From Phreatobacter sp. (GTDB lineage Bacteria; Pseudomonadota; Alphaproteobacteria; Rhizobiales; Phreatobacteraceae): a DNA stretch of 64,000 nucleotides. The notes beneath the pieces are model-generated. The model was given only the letters and a program-made list of their open reading frames with translations, was not told the DNA's origin and did no database searches. The stretch covers positions 1 to 64,000 of the forward strand of contig NZ_JALHMP010000013.1 of the NCBI RefSeq assembly GCF_022843985.1. The letters are read 5' to 3'. The position numbers were made by a program, and so were the translations under genes. Of this stretch, positions 26,187 through 36,151 are shown piece after piece. Position 1 is the first letter of the stretch, and the number at the start of each line of letters is the position of its first letter.

Positions 26187-26939
26187 ATGAACCGCATCGA
26201 TCTCGCCGGTCGGACCGCCATCATCACCGGGGGTGCCCGCGGCATCGGCTATGCCGCGGCCGAGCGCATGCTGGAGTCCGGCGCCGAGGTGGCGCTGTGG
26301 GATGTCGATGCGACGAAGCTCGCTGATGCCGCGGCGGCGCTTGCGGCCAAGGGTCGCGTCTCCACCCATGTCGTCGAACTCACCGACGAGACCTCGGTCC
26401 AGGCGGCCACCGATGCCACCGTTGCGGCCCATGGCGGCATCGCCATCCTGGTCAACAATGCCGGCATCACCGGCGGCAACGGCAAGACCTGGGAGCTTTC
26501 TCCGGAGATCTGGCGGCGCGTCGTCGAGGTCAATCTCGTCGGGCCCTATCTGACCTGCCGCGCCGTGGTCCCGGTCATGCTGAAGGCGGGCTACGGGCGC
26601 ATCGTCAACATCGCCTCCATCGCCGGCAAGGAGGGCAACCCCAATGCCTCGCATTATTCGGCCTCGAAGGCCGGGCTGATCGGCCTGACCAAGTCGCTGG
26701 CCAAGGAACTCGCCACCTCCGGCATCCTCGTCAACTGCATCACGCCTGCCGCGGCCAAGACCGAGATCTTCGACCAGATGAAGCAGGAGCATATCGACTT
26801 CATGCTGTCGAAGATCCCGATGAACCGTTTCCTGCAGGTCGCGGAGGCGGCCGCGATGATCGCCTGGCTGTCCTCCGAGGACTGCGCCTTCTCGACCGGC
26901 GCCGTCTTCGACATTTCCGGCGGCCGGGCGGTCTATTGA
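26187..26939 (+). CDS. Short-chain dehydrogenase/reductase (SDR)
   Basis: A 250-residue classical SDR. The cofactor motif is TGGARGIGYAAAERM (about 12-26), the NNAG motif lies near residue 89, the catalytic YSASK near residue 155 and the C-terminal GAVFDISGGRAVY at the end. An acidic residue after the second strand (WDVDA) suggests NAD preference. The ATG at 26187 has an AGGAAAC upstream sequence. The substrate is unknown. It is the last gene before the nitrate regulators. Confidence 0.88.
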   Translation: MNRIDLAGRTAIITGGARGIGYAAAERMLESGAEVALWDVDATKLADAAAALAAKGRVSTHVVELTDETSVQAATDATVAAHGGIAILVNNAGITGGNGKTWELSPEIWRRVVEVNLVGPYLTCRAVVPVMLKAGYGRIVNIASIAGKEGNPNASHYSASKAGLIGLTKSLAKELATSGILVNCITPAAAKTEIFDQMKQEHIDFMLSKIPMNRFLQVAEAAAMIAWLSSEDCAFSTGAVFDISGGRAVY

Positions 26940-26960
26940 CGGCCCTTGCCGCATCCCCTT

Positions 26961-26972
26961 GTGCAGTGCACC
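26961..26972 (+). promoter_or_regulatory. GTGCAGTGCACC element upstream of nasT
   Basis: GTGCA/TGCAC arms around a central G, 30 bases before the nasT start. An inverted copy (11 of 12 bases) lies after nasS at 28749-28760, upstream of the nrtA leader. The arms resemble NtrC half-sites (GTGCA/TGCAC), which would suit nitrogen control. This is a candidate only. Confidence 0.35.
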
Positions 26973-27001
26973 ATAGGGGGACTCGCTGACGGAGCCGCGC
27001 C

Positions 27002-27589
27002 CTGAGTGATCTCAGTCTGACCATCGCCATCGTCGACGAGAGCCGCTCCCGCGCCGCAATCATCGAGGAGGGGCTGCGCGATGCCGGCTATTCGAAGATC
27101 GTCCATATCGGGGAGATGACCAATCTCCTCGCCCGGCTCTATGCCACCGACCCCGACGTGGTGGTCATTGACCTGGAGAATCCGTCCCGCGACGTGCTGG
27201 AACAGTTGTTCCAGGTCTCCCGCCTGGTGAAGCGGCCCGTCGCCATGTTCGTCGACCAGTCCGATACCGGCATGATCAACAAGGCGATCGAGGCCGGGGT
27301 CTCGGCCTATGTGGTCGACGGGCTGAAGAAGGAACGGGTCAAGTCCATCCTCGACATGTGCATGGCGCGTTTCCACGCCTATGCCCGGTTGCAGAACGAA
27401 CTCGACCAGGCTCGCTCGGCGCTGGAGGAGCGCAAGATCGTCGAACGTGCCAAGGGCCTGCTGATGCGCCACAAGGGCGTCACGGAGGACGAGGCCTATA
27501 CGCTGCTGCGCCGCCGCGCCATGAACGAGAAGAAGAAGCTGGGCGACATCGCCCAGGCGGTGGTCACCGGTCTGGAGATGCTCGGATGA
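27002..27589 (+). CDS. nasT: NasT, ANTAR-domain RNA-binding response regulator
   Basis: A 195-residue antiterminator. The N-terminal receiver-like domain starts SDLSLTIAIVDESRSRAAIIEEGLR. After a coiled-coil helix (about 120-135), the ANTAR domain spans about 135-190 with AKGLLMRHKGVTEDEAYTLLRRRAMN. The ANTAR domain binds tandem hexaloop hairpins in nitrate-assimilation leader RNA. No ATG, GTG or TTG lies between the in-frame stop at 26987 and residue 38. The CTG at 27002, with GGAG at 26991-26994, is the only start that keeps the receiver intact. The stop overlaps the nasS start (ATGA). In known systems NasS holds NasT inactive until nitrate or nitrite binds. Confidence 0.88.
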   Translation: MSDLSLTIAIVDESRSRAAIIEEGLRDAGYSKIVHIGEMTNLLARLYATDPDVVVIDLENPSRDVLEQLFQVSRLVKRPVAMFVDQSDTGMINKAIEAGVSAYVVDGLKKERVKSILDMCMARFHAYARLQNELDQARSALEERKIVERAKGLLMRHKGVTEDEAYTLLRRRAMNEKKKLGDIAQAVVTGLEMLG

Positions 27590-28743
27590 GACGGATCACC
27601 ATCGGTTTCATCCCTCTGACCGACGCCGCCCCTCTCATCGCCGCGCACGAGCGGGGCTTCGCGGCGGAGGAGGGTCTTGCCTTCGACCTCGTGCGCGAGG
27701 TCTCCTGGGCCAATATCCGCGACAAGCTCTCCATCGGCCTCTTCGATGCGGCCCATATGCTCACGCCGCTGGCCCTGGCGAGCGCGCTCGGGATCGGCCA
27801 CGTCAAGGTGCCGATGATCGCGCCGATCACGCTGGCGCTGAACGGCAATGCGATCACGCTGTCGGCGGCTTTCGTACGCGAACTGGGGGCACTGCCGGAG
27901 GATCCGGTGGCCGCCCTGCCGTTGATCGCCGCGGCCATCCGGCGGCGGGAGAGTGCCGGATTGAGCCCGCCGGTCTTCGCCAGCACCTTCCCCTTCTCCA
28001 CCCATAACTACATCCTGCGCGCCTATCTCGCCGCCGGCGGCATTGACCCGGACCGCGACGTCCAGCTCGTGGTCATCCCGCCGCCGCTGATGGCGGGATC
28101 CCTCGAAAAGGGCCTGATCGACGGCTTCTGCGTCGGCTCGCCCTGGAACTCGGTGGCCGTCGACCGCGGCGCCGGCCATATCCTCGCTCCGAGCTCGGCG
28201 CTCTTTTCGCGCATTCCCGAGAAGACGCTGGTCATCGGCGATACGCTGGCGGCCGGCGACGCCGAGACGCTGCGCGCCATCATCGCCGCGACCGCCAAGG
28301 GGGCGGCCTGGTGCGCCGATCCCGGCAATGCCCTCGAACTCGCAGCCATCCTCTCGGCCCCGCATTATCTCAGCGTCGCCGCTCCCCTGGTGCTGCGCAC
28401 CATCGAGGGCCGGCTGATCTTCACGCCGGGCGGGCCGTCCCGTGCCGTTCCCGATTTCATCCGCTATGACGTGCCCGGCGCGGCCCGTCCCGATGCCGGC
28501 CGTTATGCCTGGCTCTATGCGCAGATCGTCCGCTGGGGGCAGACCCGGTTCGATCCGGAAGCGCCTTCCAAGATCGCCGCGCTGATCCGCACCGACCTCT
28601 TCGACGCGGCTGTGGGCGGAGCGCCGCCCGCCGCCGCCGCCGACCCGATCGGCAGCCTCCTGGAGCCGGCCTTCGATCCCGCCGCCCTCGCCGACTATCT
28701 CGCCCGGTTCGACGCGCGCGGCCTGCCCAGGCGGCTTGCCTGA
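27586..28743 (+). CDS. nasS: NasS, nitrate-sensing NrtA-like regulatory protein
   Basis: A 385-residue protein of the NrtA/CmpA substrate-binding fold with no signal peptide, so it is cytoplasmic. Blocks ITIGFIPLTDAAPLIAAHERGF and FPFSTHNYILRAYLAAGGIDPDRD, and GLIDGFCVGSPWNSVAVDRG, match the transporter's own NrtA encoded just downstream. Cytoplasmic NrtA-like proteins next to nasT are NasS sensors that bind nitrate/nitrite and release NasT. Translational coupling to nasT fits formation of a NasS-NasT complex. The ATG at 27586 is used; the frame is open further upstream only because it is antisense-free inside nasT. Confidence 0.9.
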   Translation: MRRITIGFIPLTDAAPLIAAHERGFAAEEGLAFDLVREVSWANIRDKLSIGLFDAAHMLTPLALASALGIGHVKVPMIAPITLALNGNAITLSAAFVRELGALPEDPVAALPLIAAAIRRRESAGLSPPVFASTFPFSTHNYILRAYLAAGGIDPDRDVQLVVIPPPLMAGSLEKGLIDGFCVGSPWNSVAVDRGAGHILAPSSALFSRIPEKTLVIGDTLAAGDAETLRAIIAATAKGAAWCADPGNALELAAILSAPHYLSVAAPLVLRTIEGRLIFTPGGPSRAVPDFIRYDVPGAARPDAGRYAWLYAQIVRWGQTRFDPEAPSKIAALIRTDLFDAAVGGAPPAAAADPIGSLLEPAFDPAALADYLARFDARGLPRRLA

Positions 28744-28748
28744 GGGCT

Positions 28749-28760
28749 GTTGCACTGCAC
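28749..28760 (-). promoter_or_regulatory. Inverted copy of the GTGCAGTGCA element upstream of the nrtA leader
   Basis: The minus strand reads GTGCAGTGCAAC, matching 26961-26972 at 11 of 12 positions. It lies about 120-130 bases upstream of the sigma54-like sequence at 28877, a normal distance for an NtrC-type enhancer. Confidence 0.3.
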
Positions 28761-28876
28761 AGCGAAGCGGCACCGCGGCGCTAATCTGCCGTCGTTTCGA
28801 ACGTTTCCAGCCTCGCCCGGTCGGACTTTGCCTTCAAGGACAGTTGACGACCGGGGTTTCCGGCCCCGGAGGCACT

Positions 28877-28892
28877 TGGCATGACCCTTGAA
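28877..28892 (+). promoter_or_regulatory. Possible sigma54 promoter for nrtABC-nasA
   Basis: TGGCATGACCCTTGAA matches the sigma54 consensus TGGCACG-N4-TTGCA with correct spacing. Two positions differ; the -12 GC reads GA, which weakens the case. A start near 28903 would put the ANTAR hairpins about 30 bases into the leader RNA. A 9-bp inverted repeat (28883-28891 with 28904-28912) overlaps it. Confidence 0.3.
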
Positions 28893-28931
28893 TAGACTTT
28901 GTCTCAAGGGTCGGCCCGAGGGTCGCATCCC

Positions 28932-28965
28932 GGCCCAGTGCAGGGCCCTTCAGCAACGCCGCTGA
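28932..28965 (+). promoter_or_regulatory. ANTAR RNA motif: tandem hexaloop hairpins P1 and P2 (NasT target)
   Basis: P1 is GGCCC-AGTGCA-GGGCC (28932-28947). P2 is TCAGC-AACGCC-GCTGA (28950-28965). Both are 5-bp stems with a six-base loop that has A at loop position 1 and G at position 4, the rule described for RNAs bound by ANTAR regulators (NasR, NasT, EutV). They are 2 bases apart in the leader of the nitrate operon, directly downstream of the gene pair that encodes NasT and its sensor. P2 overlaps the 5' arm of the terminator that follows. Confidence 0.8.
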
Positions 28966-29033
28966 CAAAAGTCCGACGTGCCGCTCTCCGACGGAGAACC
29001 GGCGACGACGAGGCCTTTGTCGGCGGCTTTTTT
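28958..29033 (+). terminator. Conditional leader terminator (attenuator) of nrtA, competing with P2
   Basis: GCCGCTGACAAA (28958-28969) pairs along all 12 bases (one G-U) with TTTGTCGGCGGC (29016-29027), directly followed by six T (29028-29033). The enclosed 46 bases include a small TCTCC/GGAGA hairpin. The 5' arm contains the 3' half of ANTAR hairpin P2, so P2 and the terminator cannot form together. NasT binding to P1/P2 would therefore let transcription reach nrtA. Confidence 0.75.
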
Positions 29034-29129
29034 GTGCCCGGAACCAGCCGGGCGGCATGAGGACCCATCCCGCCGCGGCCCGCCGCGGCCGCCATTCACC
29101 TGTTCCTTGACCGTAACCTGGACCTGACG

Positions 29130-30452
29130 ATGACAAAGACCTTCCAGGCACAGTCCCTCGCATCGGCGCGCACCAGCCGCCGCGCCTTCCTCAGGCAGAC
29201 CGCCGCCGCTGCGGCCCTCTTCGCCGCCGCCAAGACGGCCCTGCCAGCCGGCGCCTTCGCGCAGGGAGCCGGTCCGGAGGTGAAGGGCACCAAGCTCGGC
29301 TATATCGCGCTCACCGATGCTGCGCCGCTCGTCATCGCACGGGAGAAGGGCTTCTTCGCCAAGCATGGCCTGCCCGACATGGACATTGCCCGCCAGGCCT
29401 CCTGGGGCGCGACGCGCGACAACATGGCTCTTGGCACCAAGGCCAACGGCATCGACGGTGGCCATATCCTCCGGCCGAAGACGCATCTCTACAGCACCGG
29501 CAAGGTGATGCAGAACGGCCAGCCCCTGCCGATGTACACGCTCCTCAACCTCAACGAGGACGGCCAAGGCATTTCGGTGTCCAACGAGTACAAGGACCTG
29601 AACATCCAGAAGGACGCCTCGCCGCTGAAGGCGGCCTTCGAGCGCAAGAAGGCCCAGGGCAAGGACCTGACCGCCGCCATGACCTTTCCGGGCGGGACCC
29701 ATGACCTGTGGATCCGCTACTGGCTCGCCGCCGGCGGCATCGATCCCGACACCGACATCAAGGTGATCGTCGTGCCGCCGCCGCAGATGGTGGCGAACAT
29801 GAAGGTTGGCACCATGGACTGCTTCTGCGTTGGCGAGCCGTGGAACGAGCAGCTGGTCAACCAGGCCATCGGCTATACGGCCCTCACGACCGGCGAGCTC
29901 TGGTTCAAGCATCCCGAGAAGGTCCTCGGGATGCGCGCCGAATGGGTCGACGCCAATCCCCGCGCCACCCAGGCCATCCTGATGGCGGTGATGGAAGCGC
30001 AGCAATGGTGCGAGAGGATGGAGAACAAGGACGAACTGGCGCAGATCGTCGGTCGCCGCCAGTGGTTCAACGTTCCCGTCAATGACATCAACGGCCGTCT
30101 CAAGGGCAATATCAACTATGGCCACGGCCGGACGGTCGCCAATTCGCCGCTGCGGATGAAATTCTGGGGCGAGGGCGGCGCCGTCTCCTATCCGTGGAAG
30201 AGCCTCGACACCTGGTTCGTCACCGAGAACATCCGCTGGGGCAAATTCGAGCCCAACACCGACATCAAGGCGCTGGTCGATCGCACCAACCGCGCGGATC
30301 TCTGGCTACAGGCGGCGAAGACCCTCGGCATCGCCGGCGTTCCGACCTCCGACTCGCGCGGGGTCGAGACCTTCTTCGACGGCGTGAAGTTCGATCCCGC
30401 CGATCCGCAGGCCTATCTGCGCGCCCTCAAGATCAAGCGCGCCCAGGTCTGA
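29130..30452 (+). CDS. nrtA: Nitrate ABC transporter substrate-binding protein
   Basis: A 440-residue NrtA/CmpA protein. The N-terminus has a twin-arginine signal (TSRRAFLRQTAAAAALF), so the folded protein is exported to the periplasm. The mature part starts near GPEVKGTKLGYIALTDAAPLVIAREKGFF. Its TFPGGTHDLWIRYWLAAGGIDPDTD and MDCFCVGEPWNEQLVNQ blocks are the family's ligand-side segments, shared with NasS. The leader carries the NasT-responsive attenuator. nrtB, nrtC, a flavoprotein and nasA follow on the same strand. Confidence 0.94.
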   Translation: MTKTFQAQSLASARTSRRAFLRQTAAAAALFAAAKTALPAGAFAQGAGPEVKGTKLGYIALTDAAPLVIAREKGFFAKHGLPDMDIARQASWGATRDNMALGTKANGIDGGHILRPKTHLYSTGKVMQNGQPLPMYTLLNLNEDGQGISVSNEYKDLNIQKDASPLKAAFERKKAQGKDLTAAMTFPGGTHDLWIRYWLAAGGIDPDTDIKVIVVPPPQMVANMKVGTMDCFCVGEPWNEQLVNQAIGYTALTTGELWFKHPEKVLGMRAEWVDANPRATQAILMAVMEAQQWCERMENKDELAQIVGRRQWFNVPVNDINGRLKGNINYGHGRTVANSPLRMKFWGEGGAVSYPWKSLDTWFVTENIRWGKFEPNTDIKALVDRTNRADLWLQAAKTLGIAGVPTSDSRGVETFFDGVKFDPADPQAYLRALKIKRAQV

Positions 30453-30525: not shown

Positions 30526-31431
30526 ATGTCCCGACCCGCATTGAGAGCCGTCGCAACCATGCCAGACGCCTCCACCACGACGCCCGCCGCCGCGGTGGTG
30601 ACGTTGACGCCACCTCGATCCGTGAACCGGCGGGCCGTGCTGCGGTCGAAGCTCGTGTCCACAGCCAGCGTGGTGGTGCCGCCCGTCCTCACCCTGACCC
30701 TCATCCTCCTCGTCTGGGAAATCCTGTGCTCCGGGCCGGGCGCGACCCTGCCCGCGCCAAGCCAGGTCTGGCGTGACTCGAGCGACCTGATCCTCGACCC
30801 CTTCTTCGTCGCGGGCAGCCAGGATATCGGTCTCGGCTGGCGGGTCCTGACGTCGCTGCAGCGTGTCGCCATCGGCTTCGGCCTCGCCGCGCTTGTCGGC
30901 ATTGCCGTCGGAACCCTCGTGGGCCAGTCGACCTGGGCCATGCGCGGCCTCGACCCGATCTTCCAGGTGCTGCGCACCGTGCCGCCGCTCGCCTGGCTGC
31001 CGATCTCGCTCGCCGCCTTCCGTGACGCCAATCCCAGCGCCATCTTCGTCATCTTCATCACGGCGATCTGGCCGATCCTCATCAACACCTCGGTCGGCAT
31101 CCGCAACATCCCGCAGGACTATCGCAACGTCGCCGCCGTGCTGCGGCTGAACCAGATCGAGTTCTTCTGGAAGATCATGCTGCCCTCGGCCGCGCCCTAT
31201 ATCTTCACCGGCCTGCGGATCGGCGTCGGCCTCGCCTGGCTCGCCATCGTCGCGGCGGAAATGCTCACCGGCGGCGTCGGCATCGGCTTCTTCATCTGGG
31301 ACGCTTGGAACTCCTCCAAGCTCTCCGACATCATCGTCGCGCTCGTCTATATCGGCTTCATCGGCTTCGTCCTCGACCGGCTGATCGCTGGGCTCGCGAC
31401 CATTGTCACCCGCGGCACGGCCGCGAATTGA
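30526..31431 (+). CDS. nrtB: Nitrate ABC transporter permease
   Basis: A 301-residue inner-membrane permease with an N-terminal cytoplasmic stretch (about 1-40) and about six transmembrane helices. The EAA-type loop appears as NVAAVLRLNQIEFFWKIMLPSAAPYIFTGLRIG (about 202-234), matching NrtB/SsuC/TauC-type permeases. An ATG at 30526 fits; an internal ATG at 30559 is possible. It starts 74 bases after nrtA and ends 12 bases before nrtC. Confidence 0.93.
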   Translation: MSRPALRAVATMPDASTTTPAAAVVTLTPPRSVNRRAVLRSKLVSTASVVVPPVLTLTLILLVWEILCSGPGATLPAPSQVWRDSSDLILDPFFVAGSQDIGLGWRVLTSLQRVAIGFGLAALVGIAVGTLVGQSTWAMRGLDPIFQVLRTVPPLAWLPISLAAFRDANPSAIFVIFITAIWPILINTSVGIRNIPQDYRNVAAVLRLNQIEFFWKIMLPSAAPYIFTGLRIGVGLAWLAIVAAEMLTGGVGIGFFIWDAWNSSKLSDIIVALVYIGFIGFVLDRLIAGLATIVTRGTAAN

Positions 31432-31442
31432 GGAGCGCCGCC

Positions 31443-32243
31443 ATGAAACAGGCCCCCTATCTCCAGATCGACGGCGTCGAGAAGACCTTCACGCGCGGCG
31501 ATACGTCCAATCATGTCCTCGCCGATATCAATGTCGGTATCGACAATGGCGAGTTCGTCTCCATCATCGGCCATTCCGGCTGCGGCAAGTCCACCCTTCT
31601 CAACATCATCGCCGGCCTCACACCGGCGACCTCCGGCGGCGTGCTCCTCGACAACAAGGAGGTGAACGAACCCGGTCCCGACCGCGCCGTTGTCTTCCAG
31701 AACCATTCGCTTCTGCCCTGGCTGACCGTCTACGAGAATGTCCGCATGGCCGTCGACAAGGTCTTCCGGGCGACGAAGTCGCGGGCCGAGCGCCATGACT
31801 GGACCATGCACAAGCTCGATCTGGTGCACATGGCCCACGCCAAGGACCGTCGCCCCGCCGAGATTTCCGGCGGCATGAAACAGCGCGTCGGCATCGCCCG
31901 GGCACTGGCCATGGAGCCGAAGATCCTGCTGCTCGACGAGCCTTTCGGCGCTCTCGATGCGCTGACGCGGGCCCATCTGCAGGACTCCGTGATGCAGATC
32001 CACGCCACGCTGAAGAACACGATGATCATGATCACCCATGACGTCGACGAAGCGGTGCTGCTGTCCGACCGCATCATCATGATGACCAACGGGCCCGCGG
32101 CGACCATCGGCGAGATCCTCGAGGTCGCGCTGCCGCGCCCGCGCAAGCGGCTCGAACTCGTCACCAACACCACCTACATCAAGGCGCGCGAGGCGGTGCT
32201 GAAGTTCCTCTACGAGCGCCATGCCTTCGTCGAAGCGGCCTGA
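31443..32243 (+). CDS. nrtC: Nitrate ABC transporter ATP-binding protein
   Basis: A 266-residue ATPase. Walker A is GHSGCGKST (about 41-49), the Q-loop is VVFQNHSLLPWLTV, the signature is ISGGMKQRV (about 141), Walker B is ILLLDEPFGALD and the switch is ITHDVDEA. It has only the ATPase domain and is NrtD-like in length; it lacks the NrtA-like C-terminal regulatory domain of cyanobacterial NrtC. The start at 31443 follows a GGAG at 31431. The frame remains open upstream to 31305 inside nrtB. Confidence 0.93.
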   Translation: MKQAPYLQIDGVEKTFTRGDTSNHVLADINVGIDNGEFVSIIGHSGCGKSTLLNIIAGLTPATSGGVLLDNKEVNEPGPDRAVVFQNHSLLPWLTVYENVRMAVDKVFRATKSRAERHDWTMHKLDLVHMAHAKDRRPAEISGGMKQRVGIARALAMEPKILLLDEPFGALDALTRAHLQDSVMQIHATLKNTMIMITHDVDEAVLLSDRIIMMTNGPAATIGEILEVALPRPRKRLELVTNTTYIKAREAVLKFLYERHAFVEAA

Positions 32244-32255
32244 CGGGCGACGCCC

Positions 32256-33464
32256 ATGTCCGAACCGCTCGTCGTCATCGGCAACGGCATGGCCGCGGCG
32301 CGCTTCGTCGAGGAGCTCGGGCGGGTCGCGCTCGGCCGCTACAGCGTGCTGGTCGTCGGCGCCGAGCCGCGCCTCGCCTATAACCGGGTGCTGCTGTCCT
32401 CCGTTCTCGCCGGGGAACTGGCTGTTGTCGACACCGAACTGAAGCCGCCGGCATGGTGGGAGGCGCAGGGCGTCACCCTGGTTTATGGGCAGCGGGCCAG
32501 CGCCATCGATCGTGCCAGCCGGAGCGTCTGGCTGGAGGACGGGACGCAACTGCCCTATGCGCGGCTCGTGCTCGCCACCGGCTCCGACCCCATCCGCCTG
32601 CCGAAGCCGGGCATGGAACTGCCCGGTGTCCTCACCTTCCGCGACCATGACGATGTCGGCGCCATGCTGGCGGCTGCGGGGCCTGCGACGCGGGCCGTGG
32701 TCATCGGCGGCGGACTGCTCGGCATCGAGGCGGCCTGCGGCCTCGCCGCGACCGGGACGCGGGTCACGCTGCTTCATTTGATGGACCGCCTGATGGAGCG
32801 CCAACTCGATGCCGAGGCGGCGGGCCTGCTCAGGGCGGCCCTCGAGGCGCGGGGGATCACCGTTCTGCTCAGCGCCGATACGGCTGTGGTGGAGGGCGAG
32901 GGCTGCGTCGAGGCCGTCCGCCTGACCGATGGCCGGGACCTGCCGTGTGACATGGTCGTCGCCGCCATCGGCATCCGCCCCAATGCGACGCTCGCCCGCG
33001 CGGCGGGCCTGGCAACGTCCCGCGGCATCGTCGTCGACGACCATCTGACAACCTCCGATCCGGTCATTCATGCGATCGGCGAATGCGCCGAGCACCGCGG
33101 CACCTGCTACGGCCTGGTCGAGCCGGCCTATCAGCAGGCCGGCGTCCTTGCCCGGCATCTCGCGGGAAAGCCCGACGCCTATGAGGGCACGGTTCCGGCG
33201 ACCAACCTCAAGGTCTCCGGCGTGCCGGTCTTTTCAGCCGGGGACTTTCTCGGCGCGGTGGGAACCCAAAGCATCGTCTGGCGTGACCCGGGCCTTGCCA
33301 CCTACCGCAAGCTGGTCCTGCGGGACGGCGCGCTCGCTGGTGCGATCCTCTGCGGGCAGACCGCCGACGCGCCCTGGTACCTCGACCTCATCCGGTCGGG
33401 CCGGCCGCTCGGTCCGCTGCGCGACGGCCTGATCTTCGGCCAGGCGTTGGCGGAGGCGGCCTGA
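32256..33464 (+). CDS. FAD-dependent NAD(P)H oxidoreductase partner of nitrate reductase
   Basis: A 402-residue two-dinucleotide-binding flavoprotein similar to the N-terminal half of NirB. The FAD site is VVIGNGMAAARFVEEL (residues 4-20), the NAD(P) site VVIGGGLLGIEAACGL (about 148-163) and the second FAD block IVVDDHLTTSDPVIHAIGECAEH (about 258-280). It ends without iron-sulphur or siroheme domains. In Bradyrhizobium the equivalent gene beside the nitrate reductase passes electrons from NAD(P)H to it. It starts 12 bases after nrtC and lies 2 bases before nasA, so it is in the operon. Confidence 0.85.
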   Translation: MSEPLVVIGNGMAAARFVEELGRVALGRYSVLVVGAEPRLAYNRVLLSSVLAGELAVVDTELKPPAWWEAQGVTLVYGQRASAIDRASRSVWLEDGTQLPYARLVLATGSDPIRLPKPGMELPGVLTFRDHDDVGAMLAAAGPATRAVVIGGGLLGIEAACGLAATGTRVTLLHLMDRLMERQLDAEAAGLLRAALEARGITVLLSADTAVVEGEGCVEAVRLTDGRDLPCDMVVAAIGIRPNATLARAAGLATSRGIVVDDHLTTSDPVIHAIGECAEHRGTCYGLVEPAYQQAGVLARHLAGKPDAYEGTVPATNLKVSGVPVFSAGDFLGAVGTQSIVWRDPGLATYRKLVLRDGALAGAILCGQTADAPWYLDLIRSGRPLGPLRDGLIFGQALAEAA

Positions 33465-33466
33465 CC

Positions 33467-36151
33467 ATGACCGTGCAAGCGCTTCTGCCGAACCCCGTCG
33501 CGACCGCCTGTCCCTATTGCGGGGTGGGCTGCGGCGTCATTGCCAGCGTCGATGCCGCAGGGCAGGTGACGGTCGCGGGCGACCCGGCCCATCCCGCCAA
33601 TCGCGGACGGCTCTGCGTCAAGGGGTCGACCCTCGGCGAGACCGTCGACCTCGAGGGCCGCCTTCTCCATCCGATGATGCGGACCCGGTCCGGAAGCCTG
33701 GAGCGCGTCTCCTGGGACACGGCGCTGGAAGCGGTGGCCGACGGGTTCCAGCGCGCCATCCAGGCAGCGGGCCCCGATGCGACGGCCCTCTATCTGTCAG
33801 GGCAGTTGCTCACCGAGGACTATTACGTCGCCAACAAGCTGATGAAGGGCTTCGTCGGCACCGCCAATGTCGACACCAATTCGCGCCTGTGCATGGCCTC
33901 GTCGGTGGCCGGTCACCGCCGGGCCTTCGGCTCCGACACCGTGCCGGGCAGCTACGAGGACCTGGATGAGGCTGATCTCCTGGTGCTGGTTGGCTCCAAC
34001 GCCGCCTGGTGCCATCCGATCCTCTGGCAGCGGATGGTGGCCAACCAGAAGGCGCGCGGTGCCCGCATCGTCGTCGTCGATCCGCGCCGGACGGCGAGTG
34101 CCGCCGATGCGGACCTCGTGCTGCAGATCCGCCCGGGCACCGACGGCGTTCTGTTCGCGGGGCTCCTGGTCCATGTCGCCGATCACGGTGCGATGGACGG
34201 CGCCTATGTCGCCACCCACACGGAGGGCCTCGACGCCGCCCTGATCCGTGCCCGCGAGATCGCGCCCTCCATCGCGGCCACGGCCACCGCCACCGGGCTG
34301 GCCGCCGCCGATGTGGCGCGGCTCTTCGCCTGGTTCGCGGCAACCCCGCGCGCCGTGACCCTCTACAGCCAGGGGGTCAATCAGTCGGCCCAGGGCACCG
34401 ACAAGGTCTCGGCGATCCTCAACGTCCACCTGGCCACTGGCCGCATCGGTCGCCCGGGCATGGGGCCCTTCTCCCTCACCGGCCAGCCCAATGCCATGGG
34501 CGGGCGCGAGGTCGGCGGGCTCGCCAACATGCTCGCCGCCCATATGGGCTTTACCGCGGACGACATTGACCGCGTGCGCCGGTTCTGGGCAGCGCCGCGG
34601 ATGGCGGAACGCGAAGGCCTCAAGGCCGTGCAGATGTTCGAGGCGGTCGCAGCGGGCACGATCCGGGCGCTCTGGGTGATGGGCACCAACCCCGCCGCCA
34701 GCATGCCGCGGGCCGACCACGTGCGCGGCGCCCTCGCCGGGCTCGATCTCCTCGTCGTCTCGGAGAACGTGGTGTCCAACGACACGGTCAATGCCGGCGC
34801 GCATATCCTCCTGCCCGCCGCCGCCTGGGGCGAGAAGGACGGCACAGTGACCAATTCCGAGCGGCGCATCACCCGCCAGCGGTCGTTCCTGCCGCTGCCG
34901 GGTGAGGCCCGGCCGGACTGGTGGATCCTTGCCGCGGTCGGCCGCCGCCTCGGCTTCGGTGAGGCCTTCGCGTGGCGCGACCCGGCCGCGATCTTCCGCG
35001 AACATGCGGCGCTTTCCGGCTTCGAGAATCGCGGCACCCGCGACTTCGACATTTCAGGCCTGTCTGCCCTGTCTGATGCCGATTACGCGGCTCTCCAGCC
35101 CGTCCAATGGCCGGTCCGGACGCGCTCCGACCATCGCGACAAGCGCTTCTTCGCGTCCGGCGGCTTCTTCACCGCCGACGGCCGTGCCCGTTTCATCGCC
35201 ATCGCCCCGCCCGCCCTGGCCGCGCCGGCCGATGCAGCCCGACCGCTCCTGCTCAATACCGGCCGGCTGCGCGACCAGTGGCACACCATGACCCGGACGG
35301 GAAAGGCGCCGACGCTGGGCCGCCACAGTCCCGAACCCTGCCTGGCCATCCATCCCGCCGATGCGGCCGCCGCCGGTCTGGCCGACGGCGACATGGCCCG
35401 GCTCGACTCGGCCCATGGCACGGCCCGTCTGCGCGTCGCGTTCGATGCAGGACAGGCGCGTGGCGAGGTCTTCGCTCCCATCCACTGGACCGGCGAGACG
35501 ACGGCGGCGGCCCGCATCGGCGCGCTGGTGCAGGCGGCGAGTGATCCTTTCTCCGGTCAGCCGGAGATGAAGGCGACACGGGTCGCCGTCGCGCGCGTGC
35601 CCGTCGCGGCGGATGGCTTCCTGCTCTGCCGCGGCGCTGCACCCGTGATCGACGGTCTGTTGTGGACAAAGGTCGCCGTCGATGGCGGCGCGGGGCTCCT
35701 TTTCGCCGCGCCCGATGCTCTGGACGGGCCCGCCCTGATCCGCCGCGCCGCCGGGCCACGGGCCGTGGTGGCGGAGGTCAGCGACCCCGCCCGCGGCCTC
35801 TATCGCGCGGCAGCCTTCTGCGGCGACAGGCTGGAGGCCATCCTGTTTGCAGGACCGGGCGCCCGCCCTGCCTGGCACGGCGTTCAGGGGCTTTTCGGCC
35901 GCCCGCTTCTCGACGCGGCGAGCCGGCGGGCCCTGCTCTCCGGTCGGTCCGCCGAGGGCCTCCCCGATCCCGGCCCGACCGTCTGTGCCTGTTTCTCCGT
36001 CGGCCTCACCGCCGTGACCGCGGCGATCGGGGCCGGAGCAACCGATGTCGATGCCGTTGGCCGCGCCACCAAGGCCGGCACCAATTGCGGCTCCTGTCGC
36101 TCTGAGATCAGGAGGCTCCTGGCGCGCACCGGCGCTCCTGTCCCCGCATGA
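33467..36151 (+). CDS. nasA: Assimilatory nitrate reductase catalytic subunit with C-terminal BFD domain
   Basis: An 894-residue molybdoenzyme. The N-terminal [4Fe-4S] site is CPYCGVGCGVI...RLCVKG (about 17-50). The molybdopterin oxidoreductase region runs to about 560, followed by the molydopterin dinucleotide-binding domain (RLRDQWHTMTRTGKAP, about 600-705). A C-terminal BFD-like [2Fe-2S] module (CACFSVG...NCGSCRSEI, about 838-885) is the usual entry point for electrons in NasA of this type. It reduces nitrate to nitrite in the cytoplasm. No nitrite reductase gene follows in the window. Confidence 0.94.
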   Translation: MTVQALLPNPVATACPYCGVGCGVIASVDAAGQVTVAGDPAHPANRGRLCVKGSTLGETVDLEGRLLHPMMRTRSGSLERVSWDTALEAVADGFQRAIQAAGPDATALYLSGQLLTEDYYVANKLMKGFVGTANVDTNSRLCMASSVAGHRRAFGSDTVPGSYEDLDEADLLVLVGSNAAWCHPILWQRMVANQKARGARIVVVDPRRTASAADADLVLQIRPGTDGVLFAGLLVHVADHGAMDGAYVATHTEGLDAALIRAREIAPSIAATATATGLAAADVARLFAWFAATPRAVTLYSQGVNQSAQGTDKVSAILNVHLATGRIGRPGMGPFSLTGQPNAMGGREVGGLANMLAAHMGFTADDIDRVRRFWAAPRMAEREGLKAVQMFEAVAAGTIRALWVMGTNPAASMPRADHVRGALAGLDLLVVSENVVSNDTVNAGAHILLPAAAWGEKDGTVTNSERRITRQRSFLPLPGEARPDWWILAAVGRRLGFGEAFAWRDPAAIFREHAALSGFENRGTRDFDISGLSALSDADYAALQPVQWPVRTRSDHRDKRFFASGGFFTADGRARFIAIAPPALAAPADAARPLLLNTGRLRDQWHTMTRTGKAPTLGRHSPEPCLAIHPADAAAAGLADGDMARLDSAHGTARLRVAFDAGQARGEVFAPIHWTGETTAAARIGALVQAASDPFSGQPEMKATRVAVARVPVAADGFLLCRGAAPVIDGLLWTKVAVDGGAGLLFAAPDALDGPALIRRAAGPRAVVAEVSDPARGLYRAAAFCGDRLEAILFAGPGARPAWHGVQGLFGRPLLDAASRRALLSGRSAEGLPDPGPTVCACFSVGLTAVTAAIGAGATDVDAVGRATKAGTNCGSCRSEIRRLLARTGAPVPA

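Follow-up and report, generated by a model that had tools for sequence, protein, structure and literature searches.

Genes around the leader

The analysed stretch of DNA, hereafter called the window, covers 64 kb of a Phreatobacter genome and carries a pair of putative regulatory genes, nasT and nasS, followed by a predicted operon for nitrate transport and reduction, with a leader region between them. The genes concerned are the following:

27002-27589, forward strand: nasT, with a receiver-like domain (PF00072, 36.4 bits) and an ANTAR domain (PF03861, 75.8 bits)
27586-28743, forward strand: nasS, an NrtA-like sensor (NMT1_2, 227 bits), its start overlapping the nasT stop
29130-30452, forward strand: gene for an nrtA-like nitrate-binding protein, the first of the operon (NMT1_2, 347 bits)
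30526-31431, forward strand: nrtB, permease of a nitrate ABC transporter (TIGR01183, 314.7 bits, above the cut-off)
31443-32243, forward strand: gene for a nitrate ABC ATPase of the nrtC/D type (TIGR01184, 340.2 bits, above the cut-off)
32256-33464, forward strand: gene for an FAD oxidoreductase resembling the N-terminal part of NirB (TIGR02374, 376 bits, below the cut-off, N-terminal half only)
33467-36151, forward strand: gene for a molybdopterin oxidoreductase, nasA by context (PF00384, PF01568, PF04879, PF04324)

An earlier interpretation made without database searches (the sequence-only reading) had placed nasT and nasS just upstream of the leader, in agreement with the PF03861 and NMT1_2 matches given above, and nrtABC-nasA just downstream; the latter operon is indeed one of nitrate transport and reduction, but the gene for the NirB-like FAD oxidoreductase stands between nrtC and nasA. 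For the NasA candidate, which ends in a C-terminal BFD [2Fe-2S] domain, the best NCBIfam matches, neither of which reaches the cut-off, are Fdh-alpha (447 bits) and NasC (404 bits), and for NasT and NasS the same collection yields no above-threshold name. NasT is the only ANTAR protein in the window's genome and is 99-100% identical to the NasT of two Phreatobacter assemblies. The translation of nasS has, by eye, no signal sequence, and a role of NasS as the sensor that binds nitrate and NasT is predicted; the N-terminus of the NrtA-like protein, also inspected by eye, is twin-arginine-like. When compared with PDB sequences, NasS is closer to the C-terminal part of the cyanobacterial NrtC/CmpC ATPase chains (5.6e-48) than to NrtA (1.9e-38).

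Concerning the start of nasT, the region from the in-frame stop (26987-26989) to the conserved N-terminus contains no ATG, GTG or TTG, and we guess that translation begins at CTG (27002) or at a different unusual codon close to it. The same lack of ATG, GTG and TTG is seen in three related loci (L002, L003 and L102), L004 having an ATG, so that CTG or another unusual start is likely for the window and these three loci as a group. Upstream of nasT, at 26961-26972, there is also a GTGCAGTGCACC-like palindrome that may be a regulatory site; slightly altered forms of it occur at several further loci of Phreatobacter.

Hairpins and terminator of the leader

The leader between nasS and nrtA contains two hairpins and an intrinsic terminator:

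28932-28947, forward strand: hairpin P1, GGCCC-AGTGCA-GGGCC, hexaloop AGUGCA at 28937-28942 (sequence and mechanical scan)
28950-28965, forward strand: hairpin P2, TCAGC-AACGCC-GCTGA, hexaloop AACGCC at 28955-28960, the putative antiterminator (sequence and mechanical scan)
28958-29027, forward strand: intrinsic terminator with a 12-bp base stem, 28958-28969 / 29016-29027
29028-29033, forward strand: U tract of the terminator, six U (from the sequence)

The sequence and the mechanical scan agree with the earlier claim that P1 and P2 both have 6-base loops with A at the first and G at the fourth position (A1 and G4). Both stems are of 5 bp and the linker between them is of 2 nt (28948-28949); the pair thus has the form described for ANTAR targets, in which two stems of 3 bp or more follow each other in tandem, each with a hexaloop. 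The 5' arm of the terminator, GCCGCTGACAAA (28958-28969), begins exactly at the G4 of the P2 loop and includes the 3' half of P2, as both the sequence and the scan confirm. It pairs with the 3' arm, TTTGTCGGCGGC (29016-29027), over all 12 positions, followed by six U; the description of the arms as pairing fully has, however, to be qualified to the extent that 11 pairs are Watson-Crick ones and one is a U-G wobble.

With stems of at least 4 bp and a linker of at most 15 nt, the mechanical scan of both strands of the window found seven pairs of A-x-x-G hexaloops, and only that at 28932 has an overlapping terminator. Among 5000 dinucleotide shuffles of 28740-29129, with dual hexaloops counted at stems of at least 5 bp, a dual hexaloop was present in three and a dual hexaloop with a terminator in none. 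When the window and the leader were compared with Rfam, no relevant match to the P1/P2 region was obtained.

The stretch 28900-29035 folds 3.5 standard deviations more stably than its shuffles. That P2 and the terminator would be mutually exclusive had been postulated from the sequence, with a fold leaving both compatible as the outcome that would speak against it; in the folding the two do exclude each other, since holding P2 closed by a forced fold costs 11.3 kcal/mol and its pair probability is 0.00 once the terminator is complete. In a series starting at the predicted RNA start (28903) and ending at several 3' positions, the pair probability of P2 was 0.80-1.00 for RNA ends at 28966 or 29010, but only about 0.13 for an end at 28985, where local pairs compete. 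For P1, which is itself compatible with the terminator, the corresponding values were about 0.81 (28966 or 29010) and 0.58 (28985), falling to about 0.34 once the terminated RNA is finished, where a pairing located upstream competes almost equally; P1 is, moreover, absent from the minimum-energy fold of the full stretch. The terminator stem reaches 0.91-1.00 in the full RNA. An additional pairing upstream of P1 in the minimum-energy fold was considered as a part of the leader and rejected, having been seen by eye in L002 and L003 and not in L004-L006.

Promoter and possible nitrogen control

Two further features lie between the nasS stop codon and P1:

28877-28892, forward strand: sigma-54 promoter element TGGCATG-ACCC-TTGAA, i.e. 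TGGCATGACCCTTGAA, with 10/12 consensus positions
28756-28772, forward strand: TGCACAGCGAAGCGGCA, a candidate NtrC site preceding the sigma-54 element by 121 bases

The leader had been called complete in the sequence-only reading; this stands for the hairpins and the terminator, but the conserved sigma-54 element had been missed. Sites as good as this one number four in the window on both strands, itself included. Across the set of 30 leaders described below, the best sigma-54 site in the 110 bases searched scores at least 10/12 in every case, 34-63 bases upstream of P2, with TGG and TTG invariant; it is located between nasS and the terminator in 29 of them, the remaining one, L110, having another gene upstream. 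At the position of the usual C of the -12 box (window position 28891, element position 15), A is found in 26 leaders, T in three and C in one, most of them thus sharing an unusual TTGA. The position of the element places the RNA start near 28903, some 29 bases before P1, which is therefore a predicted start. A sigma-70 scan of 26800-29200 found no promoter site.

The genome encodes one RpoN and one NtrC above the curated cut-off. The candidate NtrC site agrees with 8/11 positions of the alphaproteobacterial motif printed in PMC5424462 (this and the other papers cited are used here as excerpts). In the same 28-position interval, a match of at least 8/11 is present in 24/30 leaders, as against about 14% of random intervals; since the leaders are related to each other, these counts, and with them the NtrC site upstream of the leader, are suggestive only. 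Taken leader by leader, matches to the NtrC consensus of the E. coli type did not reach significance.

Occurrence of the leader in other genomes

Of 563 NasT relatives, the loci of the best 80 were taken. Among these, an NrtA match lies downstream of nasTS in 18, although at only 31% identity in L010, and the P2 core (with at most one mismatch) is present in the gap in all 18 nrtA loci, compared with one (L013) of the 62 others. In L013 (7881-9767) the leader stands before a gene for a putative nirA-type nitrite reductase and not before nrtA, and its promoter element is 34 bases from P2. Matches to the P2 core outside the gap in L028, L032, L048, L068 and L074 were taken as chance.

The leader model R1, which had been trained on a set including the window leader and scored 150 out of 4404 first-look candidates, found one strong match in the window's genome (53.6 bits), the next one being of 19.4 bits. 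The latter (E 2.4), located before a gene that, judged from its sequence, putatively encodes an aldehyde dehydrogenase, was discarded, as a second hairpin of the proper form could not be made out by eye; four further matches are of 16.4-16.7 bits. When applied to the 61 loci without nrtA or leader, R1 gave a single match at chance level (E 0.95). As NasT targets have been published for Bradyrhizobium (PMC6759348, as excerpted), such misses indicate that the model is narrow and that absence of a match in these loci means little.

Of the 12 genomes of the genus, all but G004 contain a single leader at E 0.01 and also encode an ANTAR protein, whereas G004, which is 89% complete, lacks both; of the 11 with a leader, five repeat L002-L006, one is the window's own genome and five are new. 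Among 297 genomes of the order, R1 matched 16, namely these 11 and five more, four of which exhibit the arrangement nasTS-leader-nrtA. A set of 30 leaders was thus available, consisting of that of the window, 19 from the best-80 list and ten from the genus and order searches. It should be pointed out here that all of them were sought either by the P2 core or by a model of P1 and P2, and their conservation is accordingly biased upwards.

Two genomes of the genus, G007 and G011, encode a second ANTAR protein each, and the R1 search found no second leader in either. That of G011 (L109:1462-3155) adjoins, by eye, genes for binding proteins of amide/urea-type ABC transporters, an AmiR-like setting. 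In G007, which is 85% complete, the additional protein belongs to a further nasT-nasS pair (L108:452-2061), located on a different contig and lacking a leader match, possibly a contamination. In L110 and L124, both from genome G241, the leader and a sigma-54-like element precede a gene that looks porin-like by eye, followed by nasT and nasS, so that in G241 NasT may control its own operon.

Conservation of loops and pairing

P2 together with an overlapping terminator stem is found in 30/30 leaders, and a recognisable P1 in 29/30. The P2 loop has G4 in all 30 and A1 in 28 (L112 and L114 lack it), counts inflated by the way in which the leaders were collected, P2 or a model containing it having served as the query. 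P1 has a hexaloop in 22 leaders, with A1 in 18, G4 in 21 and both in 17, and in seven it is best read as a seven-base loop C-A-N-N-G-A-T; the A-x-x-G pattern is thus present in 24/30 P1 (17 hexaloops and seven heptaloops). The exceptions are L097, lacking G4, L004, L013, L025 and L075, lacking A1, and L023, which has no good P1. The published A1/G4 rule, invoked in the sequence-only reading, therefore applies to both loops of the window, but less strictly to P1 of the relatives (A1 18/22, G4 21/22 hexaloops). Likewise, of the conservation of A1/G4 and arm pairing that it had named as a check, G4, P2 and the terminator stem are kept, whereas A1 and the size of the P1 loop vary. The hairpins at the leader as such being of the ANTAR type is borne out by sequence, folding and comparison alike.

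In a scan that allowed the stem to start only within P2 or immediately behind it, which likewise biases conservation upwards, the best terminator stem begins at the P2 G4 in 22 of the 30 leaders, that of the window included, at A1 in five and at the end of the P2 loop or in its 3' arm in three. With 5-bp arms, the linker is of 2 nt in 21 leaders, 1 nt in seven, 0 nt in one and 3 nt in one. Forcing P2 costs energy in 30/30 leaders (1.0-12.0 kcal/mol), the small gaps of 1.0-2.8 kcal/mol belonging to L023, L030, L064 and L075; P2 is weak in L010 (3/5 pairs) and L113 (probability 0.38 in the nascent RNA).

In an alignment of 20 leaders, 81.7% of the cells of P1 and the terminator are paired, compared with 31.5-54.7% for six slid versions, and the covariation score is 0.174 versus at most 0.125; taken separately, the cells are paired to 86% in P1, 97% in P2 and 80% in the terminator. 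None of 500 shuffles reached the values of P1 plus terminator for cells paired, cells changed on both sides or covariation score. As regards how many pairs show changes on both sides and how many further pair types occur, on the other hand, the shuffles were not exceeded, either for P1 plus terminator (values reached by 193 and 316 of 500) or for P2 (483 and 482 of 500), where only one pair has changes on both sides. Three terminator pairs fail in 9-12 of the 20 leaders. Column 51, common to P2 and the terminator, changes with both of its partners; since this is largely a single difference between Phreatobacter and Afipia, the co-change is counted as one or two events.

By eye, Afipia-type leaders such as L024, L045 and L076 have a further hairpin, GGCC-(about 8 bases)-GGCC, just downstream of the promoter element, close to where the RNA is predicted to begin and before P1, and at this place the window has a different hairpin.

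NasT as the putative RNA-binding protein

With EutV numbering placed from the residues named in PMC8934654 (excerpt), the phmmer alignment shows NasT to be identical to EutV at R142, K143, K149, E160, Y164, R168, M172 and N173, i.e. at 8/11 RNA-contact positions, with only Arg/Lys exchanges at the other three (147, 175 and 177). The four EutV residues reported to touch G4 are all kept. In the EutV-RNA structure, as excerpted from the same paper, G4 stacks on Tyr164 and A1 is without contact, and EutV contacts a single hexaloop at a time; the pattern in the 30 leaders, with G4 firm and A1 loose, fits that structure.

In its receiver-like domain, NasT reads YVVDG where EutV has YLVKP, the receiver lysine being absent. 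This residue has a role in the receiver domain. Its lack would fit a NasT controlled by release from NasS and not by phosphorylation.

Proposed mechanism and alternative explanations

Based on the above results, it appears with a probability of roughly 0.9 (0.92 by our own estimate) that 28932-29033 is the leader of an nrtABC-(nirB-like)-nasA operon, acting as a NasS/NasT-controlled attenuator and driven by sigma-54. What follows from the computations themselves is that these parts exist and are conserved, that P2 and the terminator exclude each other, and that NasT has kept the contact residues; from analogy with related systems, we infer the release of NasT from NasS by nitrate, the binding of RNA, the read-through and the action of NtrC. 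Under nitrogen limitation, NtrC and RpoN would start transcription near 28903, and in the nascent RNA P1 would fold first and P2 next. With no nitrate present, NasS would keep NasT bound, and, as soon as 29016-29027 had been made, the far stronger terminator would displace P2, the polymerase stopping at 29028-29033. Upon the appearance of nitrate or nitrite, NasS would free NasT, which would then bind P1 and P2, chiefly via G4 of each loop, and hold P2 closed, with the polymerase continuing into nrtA.

A more specific proposal, which we put forward only tentatively and would not yet bet on, is that of a one-base capture: the G4 of P2 read by NasT would be the very base with which the terminator begins, while A1 would be free and a heptaloop in P1 tolerated. 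If true, it would mean a relaxed ANTAR recognition with a linker of 0-3 nt, unlike the published rule of dual hexaloops with A1 and G4.

An attenuator in which NasT acts via P2 alone, P1 being in this lineage a relic or a spacer hairpin, is considered unlikely. It would accord with the higher conservation of P2 (97% versus 86% of cells paired in the 20 leaders), with its G4 in 30/30 at the same time as P1 shows heptaloops, lost A1 and one lost G4, with the marginal P1 in the full RNA (about 0.34), and with the contact of EutV to one hexaloop at a time (PMC8934654, excerpt). P2 is, however, expected to look more conserved, being both part of the terminator and the key of the search, and the A-x-x-G pattern persists in 24/30 P1. 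Moreover, pairing in P1 persists through base changes, the pair formed by columns 19 and 30 occurring as C-G, U-A, U-G and G-C, although 6/20 are unpaired at this place. In P. denitrificans, too, a mutation of hairpin HI, which may or may not correspond to P1, led to a severe loss of expression and one of HII did not (PMC5424462, excerpt).

Still less probable is the reading of 28958-29027 as a plain terminator of nasT-nasS, with the nrt operon having its own promoter downstream. The terminator does begin 215 bases past the nasS stop and would also stop nasTS transcripts; against this stand the sigma-54 element preceding it in 30/30 leaders and the negative sigma-70 scan of 26800-29200, and the ANTAR hairpins would be left without explanation. 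Chance formation of hairpins and terminator in a GC-rich intergenic sequence, with dual hexaloops being indeed met on their own (a scan of 2.06 Mb of single-strand sequence gave 20, leaders included), is ruled out by the comparative data, since a terminator accompanies eight of those 20, all of them leaders at this site, none of the 5000 shuffles has both, 30 leaders lie at corresponding places, and gene order as well as genus-wide presence and absence agree.

Comparison with known systems

This type of control has already been described for NasR, EutV and NasT systems, and its mechanism is established. According to the excerpts, NasT remains bound by NasS until the latter senses nitrate or nitrite, whereupon the free NasT binds the leader (PMC3795266), and the binding of an ANTAR protein prevents the terminator from forming (PMC3369931, PMC6759348, PMC7496416). 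NasS-NasT systems are those of the Paracoccus denitrificans nasA leader and of Bradyrhizobium diazoefficiens nosR and nirA (PMC3795266, PMC5424462, PMC6759348, excerpts), as well as, as named in other papers, the control of nasAB in Azotobacter vinelandii. What the present results would add is a NasS/NasT leader in Phreatobacter, a clean system of one regulator and one leader; among the papers on Phreatobacter and nitrate listed from the open literature, none concerns NasS/NasT control by its title or the beginning of its abstract. The 30 leaders represent a natural set of mutations, with G4 kept, A1 loosened and the P1 loop varied in size, that is usable for testing what ANTAR proteins need.

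The window shares with the systems of P. denitrificans and Bradyrhizobium, as excerpted, the ANTAR protein NasT, the predicted sensor NasS, the leader hairpins and a presumed nitrogen control on top, and with the former also the order nasTS-leader-nas genes; it differs from these relatives in that its operon begins with nrtA, which belongs to an ABC transporter of nitrate. Its sigma-54 element stands directly before the leader, whereas for P. denitrificans PMC5424462 (excerpt) places the NtrC site ahead of nasT and terms that at nasA 'as yet unidentified'. The leader of nasF in Klebsiella, recognised by NasR, resembles it in the two-hairpin ANTAR target, the terminator and the nitrate signal (PMC7496416, PMC3369931, excerpts), but NasR senses nitrate by its own NIT domain, whereas here a separate NasS would do so. 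With the eut leaders and EutV of Enterococcus faecalis (PMC3369931, PMC8934654, excerpts) it has in common the dual hexaloops, P2 inside the terminator and the contact residues, whereas EutV is activated by phosphorylation and the receiver lysine is replaced in the window NasT. The linker, of 5-12 nt in the eut leaders, whose induction suffered when it was shortened to 3 nt (PMC3369931, excerpt), is of 0-3 nt in the present ones, and for actinobacterial ANTAR targets 2-25 nt were accepted (PMC8164766, excerpt). The differences from the best-studied members—the sigma-54 element before the leader, the linker of 0-3 nt and the looser P1—are thus modest.
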